Assembly (NCBI RefSeq): GCF_002814095.1
Contig: NZ_CP021913.1
Location: forward strand, 3,134,001 to 3,198,000
Direction of reading: 5' to 3'
Origin: Sagittula sp. P11
GTDB taxonomy: Bacteria; Pseudomonadota; Alphaproteobacteria; Rhodobacterales; Rhodobacteraceae
Length of the DNA: 64,000 bases
Under the pieces are notes generated by a model, which saw only the letters and a list, made by a program, of their open reading frames with translations, was not told the DNA's origin and made no database searches. The position numbers were made by a program, and so were the translations under genes. Of this stretch, positions 45,205 to 60,363 are shown piece after piece; the first letter of the stretch is position 1; each line of letters begins with the position of its first letter.

Positions 45205-45400
45205 GGGTGCTGGTGCCTGTGTCTAGCAGGTGAAAAGGGAATGCGCAGCCCCGCGTCGGGGTCAGGCGCAGCCGCCCCCGCGACCGTGACCGGAAAGGGC
45301 CCGAAGCCACTGGCGAGATCGCCGGGAAGGCCGGGTGCCGTTGGGCAGACAGGGACCCCCTGCCGCCCAGTTCCGCAAGCCGGGAGACCTGCCAGTGGCC
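45205..45400 (+). ncRNA. Cobalamin riboswitch
   Basis: The conserved AdoCbl aptamer landmarks occur in order: AAAAGGGAA (45233-45241), GCCGCCCCCGCGACCGTGAC (45271-45290), CGGAAAGG, GAAGCCACTGGCGAGATC (45303-45320), GGGAAGGCCGGG, and the B12 box AAGCCGGGAGACCTGCC (45377-45393). The downstream part up to ATG 45515 can form GC stems that may sequester the ribosome site. It should repress DUF1636-cobW-cobN and the coupled genes behind them when adenosylcobalamin is abundant. Confidence 0.95.
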
Positions 45401-50000: not shown

Positions 50001-50315
50001 GCCGCCAACCCCGCATGGACCCGGGGCATGATGCCCCACGGCTTCCGCGGTGCTGCGGAAATCGCCGCCACGCTCGAACACATGGCGGCCTTCGCGCACC
50101 TGGCCCGGGCGGTCCCCGACCACCTCTTCGACCTCTACCACGACGCCACCCTCGGCGATCCGGAGACCGACGCCTTCCTGCGCGAGGCCAATCCGCAGGC
50201 CCATGCGGCGATGCAGGCGCGTTTCGCGGAACTGCACCGTGCGGGCCTCTGGACCAGCCGCCGCAACTCCATCCTCGCCGACATGGCAACCGGCATCGAA
50301 AGGGCGGCGGAATGA
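47004..50315 (+). CDS. cobN: Cobaltochelatase subunit CobN
   Basis: 1103 residues. The large subunit that binds hydrogenobyrinic acid a,c-diamide and inserts cobalt with the CobS/CobT ATPase (Pseudomonas names), which are not in this window. Family stretches: LILSTYPGKDWNIGHAVGLDA, LIHIGAHGTLEWLPGKSVALS, PTGRNLFTTDPRAVPTRAAH, VDLWGSATMRTAGEEFAMAL and GVKPVWDKGSERVSGIEVLP. Slightly shorter than the ~1250-residue Pseudomonas protein. Stop overlaps the cobG start (ATGA). Confidence 0.96.
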   Translation: MHVIFRESHGLDESETPQDLGQSPADLVVLSFSDSDLGAFAEGWRRGGGPEGRMPTLRLANLAALRHPLSVDTYVEQTLEGAKGILIRLIGGVPYWSYGLQQVLALAQQKGIALAVLPADGREDRRLDEMSTLPVSTLRRLAHLCDAGGTVAAQAALAQLALAAGLYAGPVRGAKGLPPLGAWTPEHGVTCPVLTREPDKTPLAVVFYRSYLVSADLAPIRALYEEFAARGFAVTAFFVPSLKAPEAAGWLRRQIAALAPAAIVNATAFSGKGADGTSPLDAADVPVFQCVLATSDRKAWAEADRGVSPADLAMHVVLPEVDGTILGEPVSFKEAGARDPDLQFARAAHAAHAEGIAALADRVVARLSLARRTPAERRPALILSTYPGKDWNIGHAVGLDALASARAILDDLRDAGHDVTGAPADLPAALLARTESWPLAEYETALARLPATLRDDLHTAWGAPDTDTLVRDGAFRFAALRCGRATVALQPERGTPETRDDDYHDLSRTPCHGYVAFYLWLQQQSDALIHIGAHGTLEWLPGKSVALSAACWPKALTGTLPVIYPFIVNDPGEAAQAKRRLGALTLGHVPPPLRESGTPDRLARLEALLDEFSNADGLDPRRRDRLQSDIRDEAQALGVEDDLGLDRASSTAEAITRIDRFVCDVKESQFGEGLHIWGRRDPTAQDLPHDLTGSPASERRAIPAALDGRRIAPGPSGSPYRGRRDVLPTGRNLFTTDPRAVPTRAAHAQGVKLAEELVRRHLQDEGDWPRGLIVDLWGSATMRTAGEEFAMALHLLGVKPVWDKGSERVSGIEVLPIAELDRPRIDVTLRVSGLFRDVFPTLSALFSQAVRALAQRDEAPDWNPFAGRADLARVYGPAPGSFGLNMGATLEDYSDAGRRAAGEAWLAASAFALDGDAATRDAQGLAARVAAADSFVHLHDLPETDLLLAMDFAGHEGGFAAAQQVTGGNAALWHLDNTDPARPRARTLTEEIARVVRARAANPAWTRGMMPHGFRGAAEIAATLEHMAAFAHLARAVPDHLFDLYHDATLGDPETDAFLREANPQAHAAMQARFAELHRAGLWTSRRNSILADMATGIERAAE

Positions 50316-51495
50316 CAGACGGCTCTGACCCACAGGTGCGCGGCTGGTGCCCCGGCGCGCTCCGGCCCATGGCCTCGGGCGACGGCCTCGTGGTGCGCGT
50401 CCGCCCGCGCTTCGCACGGCTCACGGCGGCGCAGGGGCAGGGGCTCTGCACCCTTGCCCTGCGCTACGGCGACGGCGGGCTGGAAATGACCAACCGCGCC
50501 AACCTGCAGATCTACGGCGTGGCCGCGGCCGATCACCCGGCGCTCCTCGACGGTCTGCGCGCGCTTGATTTGCTCGACGCCGACGAGACGCTCGAAGGCC
50601 GCCGCAACGTCCTCGTGGCCCCGGCCACGTCCCGGGGGACCTCACCCACCGCCTGACAACCGCGCTTTACGCCGCACTTCCGGAGCTGCCTGAGCTTCCG
50701 GCGAAGGTCGGCTTCGCCGTCGACACCGGCCCCGCGCCGGTGCTGACAAACGACCCTGCCGACTTCCGCCTCGAGATGTCGGCGCAGGGCCCGATCCTCC
50801 GCGCCGACGGCACTGACAAGGGCCTGCCCGTCACCGGGGACGAGGCGATCCCGAGGCTGATCGCCCTCGCCACCCTCTTCGCCACGACCCGCACCCCGGG
50901 GCAGCGGCGCGCCCGCGCCTGGACCGCCGCGGGCGGGCTGCCCGAGGCCTGGCAGACCACGCCGCCCCTGTCTTCCCCGCATCCTTCATCTTGGCGGAAA
51001 TACCTCGGGGGTCCGGGGGCAGCGCCCCCGGCGGGTCGGCCCGGCGCCAGCCGGGACGATCCCGAAGGTTATGCCGCCCCCTTCGGCCGGATCGAGGCCA
51101 CGGACCTCGCGGAGCTTCTCACTCGCTCCGGGGCCAACGCGTTCACGGTCACCCCGTGGCGTCTTCTCCTGCTGCACGGCGGCCAGCGCGTCGATCATCC
51201 GGGCTTCATCACCGATCGCGACGATCCGCTGCTGACCGTCTCCGCCTGCCGGGGTGCGCCCTTCTGCCCGCAGGCCACGGTAGAGACCCGCGAACTCGCC
51301 CGGCGCCTCGCCCCCCATGTGCGCGACCTGCATGTCTCGGGCTGCGCCAAGGGCTGCGCCCGTGCCACGCCCGCCTCCGTCACCGTCACCGGACGCGACG
51401 GCGCCTATGACCTCGGTCAGGGTTGCGCAGGCGAGACCCCCCGGCTATCCGGCCTCACCGCCGACGCCCTCATCCAGGACCTCACCCGCCCATGA
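50312..51495 (+). pseudogene. cobG: Precorrin-3B synthase CobG, frameshifted and carrying a repeat insertion
   Basis: CobG oxidises precorrin-3A in the aerobic pathway. The N-terminal part (GWCPGALRPMASGDGLVVRVRPR, LTNRANLQIYGV-like region) runs in one frame to a TGA at 50654-50656. From about 50638 the homology continues in the neighbouring frame (GDLTHRLTTALYAALPELP ... AKVGFAVDTGPAPVL) to TGA 51493-51495. One missing base in TCCCGGGGGAC (50629-50640) explains the break. The C-terminal 4Fe-4S/sirohaem ligands are intact: SACRGAPFCPQA and SGCAKGCA. A composite repeat at 50981-51060 is translated in frame as a ~28-residue insert (PSSWRKYLGGPG...). Sequencing error, real mutation or recoding cannot be separated here. 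Confidence 0.85.
50981..51060 (+). repeat. Composite palindromic repeat inside the cobG reading frame
   Basis: Box CCTTCATCTTGGCGGAAATA, hairpin GGGGGTCCGGGGGCAGCGCC, then CGGGTCGGCCCGGCGCCAGC. The insert does not interrupt the frame and encodes a basic Gly/Pro-rich peptide between two conserved CobG regions (AWQTTP and APFGRIEA). Confidence 0.85.
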
Positions 51496-54434: not shown

Positions 54435-55638
54435 GTCTGAGATCCAGTCCGATCCTTGGTTGACCATCGTCGGCGTGGGCGAGGATGCCGGCCTGACGCC
54501 CGCGGCCCTCGCCGCCATCGCTGGGGCAGAGGTGGTCATGGGCCCGCCCCGCCACCTCGCGCTGCTCGCTGAGGTTCTGGGCGAGACCCGCGCCGAGATC
54601 AAGCCCTGGCCGGTGCCCTTCGCCGATGGCGTCACCCAGTTGATGGCACTGGCGGGACGGCGCGTGGTGGCGCTGGTCTCCGGCGATCCCTTCTGGTTCG
54701 GCGCCGGATCAGTGCTGGCCGACAGACTTCCGCCGGGCGCGTGGCGGGCGATCCCGGGCGTCTCCGTCTTCTCGCTGGCGGCGGCGCGGCTCGGCTGGCG
54801 GCTGGAAGGCACGGTCTGCCTCGGCCTGCACGCCGCGCCGCTCACGCGGCTGGCGCTGCACCTCGCCCCGGGCCGCCGGCTGATCGTTACGCTGCGCGAC
54901 GGTGCGGCGGTGGGCGACCTTGCCGAATACCTGCGCGCGGCGGATTTCGGCGCGACGGTCATGCATGTGATGGAGGCGCTCGGCGGCCCCCGCGAACGGC
55001 TGCGCCGCGTGACGGCCGAGGCCTGCGCGCTGGACGACGTGGACCACCCGGTCTGCGTGGCGCTGGAACCGCTGGGCGAGCCGCTGCCGCTGGCGACCGG
55101 CCGGCCCGACAGCACTTTCGACAACGACGGCCAGATCACCAAGCGGCCTGTCCGTGCCCTGACGCTTTCGGCGCTGGCGCCGCGTCCCGGCGAACACCTC
55201 TGGGACATCGGCGGCGGCTCCGGCTCCATCGGGATCGAGTGGCTGATGTGCGATCCGCTGATGCGCGCCACGGCGGTCGAGGCCGACGCAGGCCGCGCCG
55301 CCCGCATCCGCAGCAACGCCGAGGGCCTCGGGCTGGACCGGCTTCAGGTGGTCGAAGGCCGCGCGCCCGAGGCGCTCGACGGTCTGCCCGCGCCCGATGC
55401 GGTCTTTGTCGGCGGCGGCCTCTCGCAGGCGCTGCTCGACCGGCTCGACGTGCTGGCCCCCGGCGCCCGCCTCGTCGCCAACGCGGTGACGCTGGAGTCC
55501 GAGGCGCTGCTGGCCCGCGCCCACGCCGCGCGCGGCGGCTCCCTCCTGCGCATCGAGCTGTCCGACGCCATGCCCCTCGGCACCCGCCGCGGCTGGAAAT
55601 CCGCCTACCCCATCGTGCAATGGAGCGTGACGCTATGA
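54433..55638 (+). CDS. cobL: Precorrin-6Y C5,15-methyltransferase (decarboxylating)
   Basis: 401 residues, a fusion of two methyltransferase domains. The N-terminal tetrapyrrole methylase has VGVGEDAGLTPAALAAI, VALVSGDPFWFGAGSVLAD and IPGVSVFSLAAARLGW. The C-terminal CbiT-like Rossmann domain has LWDIGGGSGSIGIEWL (~256-271). It methylates C5 and C15 and decarboxylates C12. Stop overlaps ATG 55635. Confidence 0.95.
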   Translation: MSEIQSDPWLTIVGVGEDAGLTPAALAAIAGAEVVMGPPRHLALLAEVLGETRAEIKPWPVPFADGVTQLMALAGRRVVALVSGDPFWFGAGSVLADRLPPGAWRAIPGVSVFSLAAARLGWRLEGTVCLGLHAAPLTRLALHLAPGRRLIVTLRDGAAVGDLAEYLRAADFGATVMHVMEALGGPRERLRRVTAEACALDDVDHPVCVALEPLGEPLPLATGRPDSTFDNDGQITKRPVRALTLSALAPRPGEHLWDIGGGSGSIGIEWLMCDPLMRATAVEADAGRAARIRSNAEGLGLDRLQVVEGRAPEALDGLPAPDAVFVGGGLSQALLDRLDVLAPGARLVANAVTLESEALLARAHAARGGSLLRIELSDAMPLGTRRGWKSAYPIVQWSVTL

Positions 55639-56027
55639 CCGCCGTCTACCCGCCACGCCCAGACGCCGTGCACGAAAGCCCGCCCCAGAAACAGCCCGCA
55701 CCCGCCGCCGTGCACAGCACAAGGGGGGTCATACTGTTGCAAAACTCCTCGACCGCCCAACTCGCTCGCGAGACCATGCTCCTGCGCTACAAGTCCCACA
55801 CGGACGACCGGCCTCACCAGCTGACGCCCAGACCCGTACCTGTGACTGGCCGCCCCGCTAGCCAGCCCATACCCCGGTGCTGCACGTCGCACACGGACGA
55901 CCAGCCCCGCCAACTGGCACCAAAGCGTGCCCACGCGACCGCACCCTGCATCCGCCAAATCCCGTTCCGGACGAGACCCCGGGCCGCGACAGCCGGACCC
56001 GCACAGCCAGGAAGGACCGCCCCATGA
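55635..56027 (+). CDS. Possible linker ORF between cobL and cobE with internal repeats
   Basis: 130 codons from ATG 55635 (overlapping the cobL stop, with TGGAGCG upstream) to TGA 56025-56027 (overlapping the cobE ATG). The product is Pro/Arg/Thr rich and unlike any family I know. [12 protein letters not shown] and [12 protein letters not shown] recur exactly 31 codons apart (DNA copies at 55794 and 55887). The base composition is less GC-biased at third positions than in the flanking cob genes. It could be a translated spacer or only an open frame by chance. Confidence 0.35.
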
Positions 56028-56386
56028 TCGTTGCCGGATTCGGATATCGCAGCGGGGCGACCCTCGACAGCCTGCGCGACGCCTACCGCCGCGCGCGGCT
56101 GGGACAGGAGGCCGACGTGCTCGCCACCGTCGAGGACAAGCTGCCTCTGCTCCACGATCTTGGGGCCGACATCCGCCGCCCCGCCGTCGGCATCTCCTCG
56201 AAGTTTATGCAGGTGCAGGAAACCGAAACCGTGTCCGAGATCGTGCTCGCCGCCCGCGGCGTCGGATCGGTGGCCGAGGCCGCCGCCCTCGCCGCCGCGG
56301 GCCCCGGCGCGCAGCTCCTCTCGACGCGCGTGGTGTCGGAGGACGGCCGCGCCACCTGCGCCTTCGCCATCGGAGAAGACGAATGA
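56024..56386 (+). CDS. cobE: CobE, cobalamin biosynthesis protein
   Basis: 120 residues from ATG 56024, preceded by [25 protein letters not shown] and [34 protein letters not shown] belong to the CobE/CbiG C-terminal domain family. Required for B12 synthesis in Pseudomonas denitrificans; exact reaction not established. Stop overlaps cobM (ATGA). Confidence 0.92.
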
Positions 56387-57180: not shown

Positions 57181-58490
57181 AGGGTGTCCTCGTCTCCGCG
57201 CCGTCCTCCGGCACCGGCAAGACCACCGTCATGCTGGGCCTCCTCCGGGCGCTGGCCGACGACGGCGTGAAGGTCCAGCCGTTCAAGTCCGGCCCCGACT
57301 ACATCGACCCGGCCTTCCACCGCGCCGCCAGCGGGCGCTATTCCTTCAACCTCGACACATGGGCGATGGACGCGGCGCTTCTGGACGCGCTCGCCAGCGA
57401 GGCGGCAGAGGCCGACTTCTGCATCGCCGAAGGCTCCATGGGCCTTTACGACGGCGTCGCGACCGAGGGGCAGTCGGGCTTCGGCTCCTCCGCCGAAACC
57501 GCGCGCCGCTTCGGCTGGCCGGTGGTGCTGGTGCTCGACGTGGGCGGGCAGGCGCAGTCGGCGGCGGCCACGGCGCTGGGGTTCGCCACCTACATGCCGG
57601 ACCTGCCCTTCGCGGGCGTGATCCTGAACCGCGTGGCCTCGCCGCGCCACGAAAGGCTGACCCGGCTGGGGATGGAGCGTGCGGGCCTGAACGTGCTGGG
57701 CGTGCTGCCTCGGCGCGGCGACCTGACGCTGCCGGAGCGCCACCTCGGGCTGGTGCAGGCGGTCGAACATCCCGACCTCGACGCCGCCATCGCGGGCTAT
57801 GCCGACTTCCTGCGCGAACACGTGGACCTCAAGGCAATCGTCGCGGCAGGCCGGGGCGAATCCCGCCCCACGGGGCCGATGCGCCTGCCGCCGCCGCCCG
57901 CGCAACGCATCGCGCTTGCGCAGGACGCGGCCTTCTCCTTCACCTATCCGCACATCCTCAAGGGCTGGCGCGAGGCCGGGGCAGAGATCCTGCCGTTCTC
58001 GCCCCTTGCGGACGAGACCCCGGCACAGGACGCCGACCTCGTCTGGCTGCCCGGGGGCTACCCGGAGCTGCACGCAGGCCGCCTTGCCGCCGCCGACCGC
58101 TTCCGCACGGCGCTTTGCCGCCACGCCGAAACCCGGCCCGTGCACGGCGAATGCGGCGGCTACATGGCGCTTGGCGCGGCGCTGACCGACAAGGACGGCG
58201 TCACCCACCGGATGGCGGGCCTTCTGGGCCTCGTCACCTCCTACGAGAAGCGCAAGTTCCACCTCGGCTACCGCCGCGCCGTGCTGCAGGCGGCCATGCC
58301 CGGCTTCACCCCCGGCATGGCGCTGCGCGGGCATGAATTCCACTATTCCACCATCCTCGAACAGCCCGACGCGCCGCTGGCGCAGGTCTTCGACGCGGAT
58401 GGCAACCCGGTGGTGGAAACCGGCTCCGTCCGGGGCCACGTGTCGGGGACGTTCTTCCACCTCATCACCGGCGAAGGGGGCATGGCATGA
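57177..58490 (+). CDS. cobB: Hydrogenobyrinate/cobyrinate a,c-diamide synthase
   Basis: 437 residues. N-terminal ATPase domain: [20 protein letters not shown] (P-loop ~9-16), [22 protein letters not shown]-terminal glutamine amidotransferase: Cys in [12 protein letters not shown] (~325) and a distal His in HEFHYSTI. It amidates the a and c side chains before cobalt insertion. ATGA-coupled to cobM and cobA. Confidence 0.95.
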
Positions 58491-59206
58491 CCGGCTTTGT
58501 CAGTTTCGTGGGCTCCGGTCCCGGCGATCCGGAGCTTCTGACCCTGAAGGCCGTGGACCGCCTGAAACGGGCCGACGCGGTGCTGTTCGACGACCTCTCC
58601 TCCGGTCCGATCCTCGGACATGCGCGGCAGGGGGCGGACCTCGTGGGCGTGGGCAAGCGCGCCGGGCGCCCCTCGCCGAAACAGGACCATGTCTCTCGCC
58701 TGCTGGTGGACTACGCCCTGACCGGCCAGCGAATCGTGCGGCTCAAATCCGGCGACAGCGGTATCTTCGGCCGGCTGGAGGAAGAGCTGACAGCCCTCAA
58801 GGCGGCGGGCATCCCGTACGAGATCATCCCCGGTGTGCCCTCAGCCGTGGCGGCGGCCGCGGCGGCGGGCATCCCGCTGACCCGGCGCCTGACCGCACGG
58901 CGGGTGCAGTTCGTCACCGGCCACGACGTGTCCGGCGCGCTGCCCGAGGACCTGAACCTCGACGCGCTGGCCGATCCGCTGGCCTCCACGGTGATCTTCA
59001 TGGGCAAGGGCACCTTCCCGCGCCTGTTTGCCATGCTCGAAGCGCGCGGCCTCCCGGCCTCCACCGCCGCGATCCTCGCCGAAGAAGTGAGCGGCCCGGG
59101 CCAGACCATCACCCGCACGACCGTGGGCGCCCTGGCCGAACAACTGGCCGCCGAGAAGGGCACCAAGGCCGCCCTGATCCTCTACGGCTCCCTTGCGGAG
59201 GCCTGA
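58487..59206 (+). CDS. cobA: Uroporphyrinogen-III C-methyltransferase
   Basis: 239 residues. SUMT motifs: VGSGPGDPELLTLKAVDRL, DAVLFDDLSSGPIL, IVRLKSGDSGIFGRLEEEL, IPGVPSAVAAAAAAGIPLTRR. It makes precorrin-2, the first committed step of corrin and sirohaem synthesis. Unlike the upstream genes its stop (TGA 59204) is not overlapped by a start; a 430-base region with short ORFs follows before cobF. Confidence 0.96.
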   Translation: MTGFVSFVGSGPGDPELLTLKAVDRLKRADAVLFDDLSSGPILGHARQGADLVGVGKRAGRPSPKQDHVSRLLVDYALTGQRIVRLKSGDSGIFGRLEEELTALKAAGIPYEIIPGVPSAVAAAAAAGIPLTRRLTARRVQFVTGHDVSGALPEDLNLDALADPLASTVIFMGKGTFPRLFAMLEARGLPASTAAILAEEVSGPGQTITRTTVGALAEQLAAEKGTKAALILYGSLAEA

Positions 59207-59301
59207 GGGGTGCGCGGGCGGTCGGGTCTTTGTGGCGTCCGGATGGGGCGGGTTGCGGGTGCTGTCTGTCGTGCCGCCCATGCAGAGGGGCTTGAACGGT
59301 G

Positions 59302-59415
59302 ATGGAGCACGCCGCTCCTCCGCAAGCCGACGCGCCCGCTCTCGTCCGTCCGATCCGGGCCTGTCAGGCGTGCCACGCCTTGTCCTTCGCGTGTATCCAA
59401 GAGGCCGACCGATGA
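59302..59415 (+). CDS. Small ORF 1 of a tandem trio before cobF (37 aa)
   Basis: ATG 59302, with GAGGGG ten bases upstream, overlaps a preceding TGA (TGATG) that ends an even shorter frame from ATG 59243. It ends at TGA 59413-59415 overlapping the ATG of the next small ORF. The product has four Cys (a CQAC pair) and ends EADR. It aligns weakly with the next two ORFs (shared His near position 4, Gln23, Ala27 and the final DR). Confidence 0.4.
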   Translation: MEHAAPPQADAPALVRPIRACQACHALSFACIQEADR

Positions 59416-59528
59416 GAGACCACACGACCCACGCCGACGCCCTGACAACCTCCCGCGTTCACCGTGCCGTGGCAACGCAGGCGGAAGGCGCTTGTCTTGG
59501 AACGTCTTCCGAAAGGTCCGACCGATGA
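59412..59528 (+). CDS. Small ORF 2 of a tandem trio before cobF (38 aa)
   Basis: ATG 59412, preceded by AAGAGG at 7-base spacing, to a TGA overlapping ATG 59525. Its peptide aligns without gaps with ORF 3 over all 38 residues. Fourteen positions are identical: Met1, His4, Thr6, Asp9, Thr12, Ser14, Arg18, Ala19, Gln23, Ala27, Cys28, Glu34, Arg35, Arg38. The DNA around each start (CCGACCGATGA) is also repeated. It looks like a duplicated translated unit. Confidence 0.5.
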   Translation: MRDHTTHADALTTSRVHRAVATQAEGACLGTSSERSDR

Positions 59529-59641
59529 CCAACCACGCGACAGGCGTGGACGGCGCGACAGCCTCCGTCCACCTTAGAGCCATGGACCGGCAGGTGACGA
59601 GCGCCTGCTGGGTCAAACCCTTGGAAAGGACCGAACGATGA
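59525..59641 (+). CDS. Small ORF 3 of a tandem trio before cobF (38 aa)
   Basis: ATG 59525, preceded by AAAGG, to a TGA at 59639-59641 overlapping the cobF ATG (59638). Same length as ORF 2 and 14 of 38 residues identical. No signal peptide or membrane segment; a single Cys28 is conserved. Possibly only a coupling device that feeds ribosomes to cobF, or a small protein family of its own. Confidence 0.5.
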   Translation: MTNHATGVDGATASVHLRAMDRQVTSACWVKPLERTER

Positions 59642-60363
59642 TCGAACGTGTGGTCCTTGTGGGCATCGGGACGGGCAGTCTCGGCCACCTGACGCTGGAC
59701 GGGCAGGCGGCGCTGCGGGCGGCGGACGTGATCCTCGTGCCCCGCAAGGCCGAGAAGGACGACCTCGCCGAGATCCGCCTGCGCCTGCTGGAACAGGCCG
59801 GCGTCGCGGCCCGGGTCGCCTTCTTCGACTATCCCGTCCGGGACGAAACCTTGCCATACCTCGAACGCGTCGAACGCTGGCATGACGAAATCGCAACCCG
59901 CTGGTCCGCCGCCGCCGGAGAGGCCGCCGAAGTAGCCCTCCTGGTCTGGGGCGACCCCTCCTTCTACGACAGCACGATGCGCATCGCGTCCCGGCTGGTG
60001 TCCGCGGGTGCGGTGCGGGTGGTGCCCGGGATCACGGCGGTGCAGGCCCTTACGGCGGCGCATGGGGTGCCTTTGAACACGGTGAACGGGCGGATCCTGG
60101 TCACCACGGGCCGGCGGCTGAGGGACGGGGGATGGCCCGAGGGGGCGGAGAGCGTGGTGGTGGTGCTGGACGGGGAGTGCTCGTTCAGGGGGCTGACTGG
60201 ACTGGGGCTGGAGATCTGGTGGGGGGCGTTCCTGGGGATGCCCGAGGAGATCCTGCTGAGCGGGCCGCTGGACGAGGTTTCGCCGCGGATCGTGGAGGTC
60301 CGGGAGGCGGCGCGGGGGCGGCACGGGTGGGTGATGGACACCTACCTGATGCGGAAATCCTGA
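59638..60363 (+). CDS. cobF: Precorrin-6A synthase (deacetylating)
   Basis: 241 residues from ATG 59638, with GGAAAGGA upstream. Tetrapyrrole methylase fold: VVLVGIGTGSLGHLTLDGQAAL, ADVILVPRKAEKDDLAEIR, LLVWGDPSFYDSTMRIASRL and VVPGITAVQALTAAHGVPLNTV. It methylates C1 and releases the acetyl group, the step specific to the aerobic pathway. Last gene of the cob block, followed by a hairpin repeat. Confidence 0.95.
   Translation: MIERVVLVGIGTGSLGHLTLDGQAALRAADVILVPRKAEKDDLAEIRLRLLEQAGVAARVAFFDYPVRDETLPYLERVERWHDEIATRWSAAAGEAAEVALLVWGDPSFYDSTMRIASRLVSAGAVRVVPGITAVQALTAAHGVPLNTVNGRILVTTGRRLRDGGWPEGAESVVVVLDGECSFRGLTGLGLEIWWGAFLGMPEEILLSGPLDEVSPRIVEVREAARGRHGWVMDTYLMRKS

Follow-up and report, generated by a model that had tools for sequence, protein, structure and literature searches.

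A young tandem-repeat spacer between cobA and cobF of Sagittula sp. P11 that may be retained for staying translated

Introduction

Why should a run of very short ORFs, each stopping where the next one starts, lie between two genes of a cobalamin operon? The question was raised by a first-pass annotation of a 64,000-nucleotide stretch of Sagittula sp. P11 DNA (contig NZ_CP021913.1, positions 3,134,001 to 3,198,000), here called the window; positions given without a contig or locus name are those of the window. The genome (G000) was compared with other genomes of the genus (G001, G002 and G003) and with a set of 394 genomes of the family.

Termination-reinitiation at ATGA gene overlaps is described in the available parts of two studies (PMC6728339; PMC10666635). 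The junction type is the same at this locus, although such overlaps usually join two real genes, whereas in this case spacer ORFs take the upstream position. In the portion of the second study that is accessible, reinitiation coupling was almost abolished at a distance of about 20 nt in six gene pairs, and overlaps or very short distances were needed (PMC10666635). Two genes would therefore be expected to lose their coupling if hundreds of bases were inserted between them, unless the inserted DNA is itself translated.

Results

The chain between cobA and cobF

It was confirmed base for base that three ORFs of 37, 38 and 38 codons (ORF1 to ORF3) are chained by ATGA junctions into the downstream gene, as the first-pass annotation had described (Table 1). 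The junctions ORF1/ORF2, ORF2/ORF3 and ORF3/cobF are all ATGA, and the start-to-start spacings, reported before as 110-113 bases, were measured as 110, 113 and 113. A further ORF, ORF0, opens three bases past the cobA stop and joins the end of cobA to the array, and the whole gap of 431 nt (59207-59637) is one chain of four ORFs. The stop/start overlaps along the chain are 4, 4, 4 and 1 nt, which at the sequence level fits the geometry of termination-reinitiation. A Shine-Dalgarno-like sequence had been noted before each ORF; by eye this is right for ORF2 (AGAGG) and ORF3 (GAAAGG), as it is for cobF (GGAAAGG), while ORF1 has a weak one (GAGGGG, 12 nt before its start). The upstream gene we take to be cobA; the name CobF was given in the first-pass annotation and is what we would presume from cob gene order, and matches in relatives support it.

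Table 1. Features of the two operon spacers and their flanking genes (window positions)
Feature	Position	Strand	Description
cobA	58487..59206	+	gene upstream of array; TP_methylase, Pfam PF00590, E 5.7e-42
ORF0	59210..59302	+	30 codons, from a GTG behind GGAGG; its TGA overlaps the start of ORF1 (TGATG)
ORF1	59302..59415	+	ATG 59302, TGA 59413-59415; 37 codons; on unit w1; TGA overlaps ORF2 start
ORF2	59412..59528	+	ATG 59412, TGA 59526-59528; 38 codons; on unit w2; TGA overlaps ORF3 start
ORF3	59525..59641	+	ATG 59525, TGA 59639-59641; 38 codons; on unit w3; TGA overlaps cobF start
cobF	59638..60363	+	gene downstream of array; ATG 59638; TP_methylase, Pfam PF00590, E 1.5e-31
Unit w1	59302-59411	+	110 bp; begins ATGG
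Unit w2	59412-59524	+	113 bp; begins ATGA
Unit w3	59525-59637	+	113 bp; begins ATGA
cobL/cobE spacer ORF	55635..56027	+	130 codons; from the ATGA at the cobL stop to the ATGA at the cobE start

Repeat units under the ORFs

The ORFs lie on DNA that is repeated in tandem. Units w2 and w3 align without gaps at 66 of 113 bases (58%), and the unit alignments stand above those of shuffled sequences with z of 5.3 (w1-w2), 2.8 (w1-w3) and 7.2 (w2-w3), showing a tandem repeat beyond chance. The 14 of 38 identical residues reported earlier for ORF2 and ORF3 agree with the 37% shared residues found in our alignment; the ORF1 peptide aligned poorly to both and was left out of it. At their ends the units have, by eye, a purine-rich stretch and then CCGACCG (or a variant), after which the next start follows, so that a ribosome binding site (RBS) and a start are carried at the end of each unit, and each of the copies w2 and w3 brought a start that overlaps the preceding stop. 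This is because a unit of 113 bp, a multiple of three plus 2, that begins with ATGA automatically places each copied start over the stop of the preceding frame. As the ATGA junctions were copied along with the repeat, the repeated junctions are largely one fact and not three.

The start of w3 resembled the cobF start with its RBS (score 41.5; 17 cbiM starts at most 24.0, other control gene starts 23.0), as did that of g3, a unit of G003 described below (32.5 against 27.0), and by the same scoring the starts of w1, w2, g1 and g2 showed no clear likeness to it. An origin of the units from a cbiM start was not supported, as the mean scores against the 17 cbiM starts were not above those against 12 control gene starts; an exception was unit g1, whose best single cbiM match scored 37.5 with controls at most 24.5.

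A unit model, R1, was built from w1-w3. Among the four genus genomes (150 first-look candidates scored per genome), arrays were found only in the cobA-cobF gap of G000 and G003, and with stricter filters and nine candidates scored per genome no further array was found in the 394 family genomes. Single, non-array matches occurred in 8 of the 394, including G001, at E 1.5e-4 to 7.7e-4, and many sites in the genus genomes matched at E 0.04-1, which were taken as chance. A dispersed repeat was rejected, since a DNA search of G000 and R1 in the four genus genomes gave no other locus; in a plasmid collection the array was unmatched. Twelve of these weak R1 matches, all in G000 and of equal score (15.0 bits), sit on a multi-copy element (for example C1:690381-690476, L128), and the one copy inspected, that in L128, adjoins a transposase-like ORF.

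The same gap in relatives

In the nearest relative, G003 (CobA 99% and CobF 92% identical to those of G000), the cobA-cobF gap is 650 bp and holds at least four units by model R1 (g0-g3); the bounds of g0 (120 bp) were set by eye, and R1 covers 98 bp of it. Units g2 and g3 begin with ATGA, g1 with ATGG, and the start of g0 is lost. The unit lengths are 120, 108 and 113 bp (g1 120, g2 108) compared with 110, 113 and 113 bp in G000, and the differences are not multiples of three; with units of 120 and 108 bp, no internal ATGA junction survives and the frames are fused. One open frame, beginning at a GTG behind the cobA stop, spans the gap up to the ATGA of cobF. By the refuting condition that the first-pass annotation set for itself, its separately coupled three-ORF structure is not kept in the closest genome compared.

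The corresponding gaps of G001 and G002 are 1,024 and 1,041 bp and contain a cobalamin riboswitch and a CbiM-type gene. CobF was found at E 1e-40 or better in 171 of the 394 family genomes, and 54 returned loci were compared. CobA was unmatched in nine, and in five the match was only 29-31% and was taken for another methylase, which left 40 usable loci including G000 and G003. The gap is 6-44 bp in 22 of the other 38 and 852-1,053 bp in 14; the remaining two have 334 bp (L011) and 174 bp (L014). A cbiM-type start is present in all 14 loci with the long gap, and a cobalamin riboswitch (Rfam) in all eight of these that were searched. The array thus occupies the site of a B12 riboswitch and a cbiM-type gene in two other members of the genus, and many other relatives are almost gapless there. 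CbtA was considered as the gene in the relatives' gap and rejected, as PF09490 matched in none of the four genomes and PF01891 (CbiM) fitted instead. A CbiM gene (171.6 bits) lies away from the cob cluster in G000 (C1:4307783-4308367, L169) and likewise in G003 (L168), and G001 and G002 have a cbiM-type gene within the cluster.

The cobalamin riboswitch model RF00174 had no match in the array of G000 or G003 even at E up to 5, and each array gave one chance match to Rfam (E 2.4 and 0.4). A riboswitch remnant as the origin of the array was rejected on this ground. The window's only Rfam match at the gathering score is a cobalamin riboswitch at 45208-45397 (77.5 bits), upstream of a DUF1636-like gene and cobW, and the second riboswitch, which precedes cbiM in relatives, is therefore missing here.

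A second spacer between cobL and cobE

A single frame of 130 codons crosses the cobL/cobE spacer of G000 (55639-56023) with ATGA at both ends, that of cobE at 56024. Of the 19 other loci in which CobL was matched, 17 have cobL and cobE overlapping by 4 bases (ATGA or GTGA); the exceptions are L076 and L085. In both G000 and G003 the cobL end is GTGACGCTATGA, the form found in overlapping loci, and the CobE match begins 390 bp (G000) or 261 bp (G003) past the CobL match, again at ATGA; in G001 the distance is 1 bp. The two spacers align poorly with each other, and both are open in the frame from ATGA to ATGA. Such a pattern would be expected if DNA had been inserted at a coupled start and had become coupled again to its neighbours on either side. 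The G000 ORF holds two 78-bp copies, 93 bp apart and 73% identical; searches of Pfam, NCBIfam and PHROGs up to E 1 gave no match to it, and no strong second locus was found for the spacer. In the adjoining CobE (CbiG_C; 56024-56386), identity between G000 and G003 falls to 78%, against 94% in CobL and 97% in CobM, showing fast change beside the spacer.

Is the open chain more than chance?

All four spacers (two gaps in G000 and G003) are bridged end to end by frames with junctions of -4 to +5 nt. Under this tight rule, with ATG or GTG starts, chains also arose in shuffled gaps, in 3.8% for G000 cobA-cobF, 16.5% for G000 cobL-cobE, 8.1% for G003 cobA-cobF and 44% for G003 cobL-cobE, and looser rules gave up to 26, 27, 38 and 59% in the same order. 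When the junctions and leader of the G000 cobA-cobF gap were kept and only the unit interiors were shuffled, 32% still chained under the tight rule. The ORF chain by itself is therefore weak evidence of anything beyond chance.

As a background, a simple gene finder was run on twenty 20-kb stretches of G000 and the window, giving 60 same-strand gaps of 150-800 nt. Four were bridged, compared with 1.6 expected from shuffles; two of these are the operon's own spacers, leaving 2 of 58 others. These two (L190:11991-12259 and L196:3069-3310) each have a single coupled frame and by eye look like small protein genes missed by the gene finder. Bridging is thus rare in the sampled gaps, whereas in this operon it is seen at both spacers and in both species, which is suggestive evidence, not strong. 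It is only suggestive because the choice of the cobA-cobF gap rested on its ORFs, the cobL/cobE spacers of the two species have a common origin, every one of the four spacers also has at least one open antisense frame, and some cobA-cbiM gaps chain as well (by a loose rule 3 of 14 in relatives, one of them in a single frame; the gap ends are crude and look wrong for L007 and L072).

Discussion

The array could be read as a duplicated gene for a real small protein of about 38 aa with an M-x-x-H-x-T...R pattern, which was one suggestion of the first-pass annotation. The homology of the units bears out the duplication; a small gene is improbable. The ORF frame does rank first of the six frames by codon usage in w1, w2, w3, g2 and g3 and in the cobL/cobE ORF of G000, but at low scores, the five units lying between -0.30 and 0.02 bits per codon, where 113-nt pieces of known genes have a median of 0.51. 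Its rank is second in the cobL/cobE ORF of G003, third when the cobA-cobF frame of G003 is taken as a whole, and fourth in ORF0, whose codon usage is not coding-like. The youngest pair in G003, g0-g1, has most of its 12 differences at third codon positions (2/2/8; binomial P 0.019, random-placement P 0.07; pN/pS 0.37), yet in just these two units the ORF frame is last of six, and an antisense frame looks more constrained than the ORF frame (pN/pS 0.20). Between w2 and w3 the differences are spread evenly over the codon positions (15/16/16; pN/pS 0.8), so that it is the openness of the frame which appears to be retained. No NCBIfam family fits the array ORFs, and no match below E 0.1 was found in Pfam, NCBIfam or PHROGs, with chance matches only (Pfam PF23288, E 0.1; phrog_33812, E 0.43). 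Together with the fused frames of G003, these results make peptide-level constraint look unconvincing, and most likely the small ORFs are not protein genes. A non-coding RNA or attenuator repeated in tandem, for example as hairpins upstream of cobF, would explain the strong fold of w3 (whole unit z -2.9 against shuffles, local hairpin z -3.8) and the weaker local hairpins of w2 and g3 (z -1.7 each), and by eye some relatives have a terminator-like hairpin before cobF. We give this little credence, as the whole units w1 and w2 fold no better than shuffles (z -0.6 and +0.9), the hairpins of w1, g0, g1 and g2 have z of 0 to +1.3, a scan for terminator-like sites was negative, and neither array had a cobalamin or other credible Rfam match.

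A neutral scar is a serious possibility, although we lean away from it. The leader before cobF would have been duplicated in tandem at random where the riboswitch-cbiM cassette is missing, the open frames and ATGA chains would be by-products of GC-rich, stop-poor sequence and a copied RBS-ATGA, and cobF would use its own RBS, which by eye is still a good one. That the junctions belong to the repeat and that about a third of the interior shuffles chain would be expected of such a scar, as would the flat distribution of w2-w3 differences, the open antisense frames and unit lengths that differ between the species by numbers not divisible by three. It accounts less well for the bridging of both operon spacers in both species when bridging is rare in the other sampled gaps of G000, and for the cobL/cobE spacer sitting exactly on an ATGA overlap.

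The array is a young, fast-changing tandem-repeat spacer between cobA and cobF. The reading that we would put at about even is that it is a translated spacer, namely repeat DNA that is tolerated, and perhaps selected, for staying translated and keeping the flanking genes coupled. Ribosomes leaving cobA could re-initiate at the GTG of ORF0, pass through ORF0-ORF3 by termination-reinitiation and so reach cobF, and the cobL/cobE spacer could provide an equivalent relay through one frame. What is maintained would then be translation and not the peptide. The likely benefit would be that expression of cobF and cobE stays coupled and that the inserted RNA is spared Rho-dependent polarity. The ribosome relay proposed in the first-pass annotation, to keep cobF coupled to upstream translation, survives in this broader form, in which the gap can be read through along its full length in both species, from cobA to cobF, and the other spacer of the operon behaves alike.

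That annotation also knew of no described counterpart in cob operons. In the open-access papers searched, no report of translated repeat spacers in a cob operon was found; in architecture, however, the mycobacterial MIRUs are a counterpart. MIRUs occur as tandem copies in the mycobacterial senX3-regX3 operon and are dispersed over many genome loci, and the title of Supply et al. 1997 names intergenic repetitive units of a two-component operon. As judged from sequence, the likeness lies in a short repeat that sits at a start codon between genes of an operon and holds an ORF whose junction with the following gene is at -4 nt (here the ATGA at 59638 and 56024), and at cobL/cobE in a spacer that splits the 4-nt overlap found in most other loci. 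MIRUs seem to be mobile and to insert at start codons, their ORF being coupled at -4 nt, which probably limits the effect of insertion, according to the accessible part of a review (PMC12548453). In contrast, the 113-bp unit is at one locus only in the searches of G000 and of the four genus genomes, no sign of mobility was seen, the phylum is another one, and the two spacers of differing sequence lie within one operon. The comparison is one of architecture.

Other known devices share single features with the spacers. The small regulatory ORF mgtQ, between mgtC and mgtB of Salmonella, promotes translation of the next gene, and like the ORFs described here it is a small ORF in an operon gap; in the available part of that paper, however, its acidic residues and a stem-loop matter (PMC8092293), whereas neither peptide nor fold of the cob spacers looks conserved. 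Among synthetic, non-functional upstream ORFs, one that encodes a nonsense peptide and carries an RBS by its stop boosts translation of the gene after it (PMC13255528, in the portion available); these are engineered single ORFs in E. coli, while the cobA-cobF array is a natural chain of four. The B12 riboswitches and uORF translation studied in Mycobacterium tuberculosis are, as far as the accessible text of that study goes, a different device (PMC11260477).

A wider and more doubtful proposal is that Alphaproteobacteria independently evolved MIRU-like translated spacers, in which repeat DNA enters operons at ATGA overlaps and is selected only for translatability, so that a gap could reach 650 bp without uncoupling. 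If translated spacers are real, many of the short ORFs between operon genes could do without a protein function, their role being to carry ribosomes. Two sister species with different repeat numbers, one with a split and one with a fused version, would then offer a compact natural test of how far a coupling relay can reach. Both species also show a young rearrangement of the B12 operon without the riboswitch-led cbiM-type gene of the genus.

Elsewhere in the window, the cobG frame (50312-51495) is interrupted near 50630-50656, where two frames are needed, and it is a single frame in G003 and G001; this is either a recent frameshift or a sequencing error.
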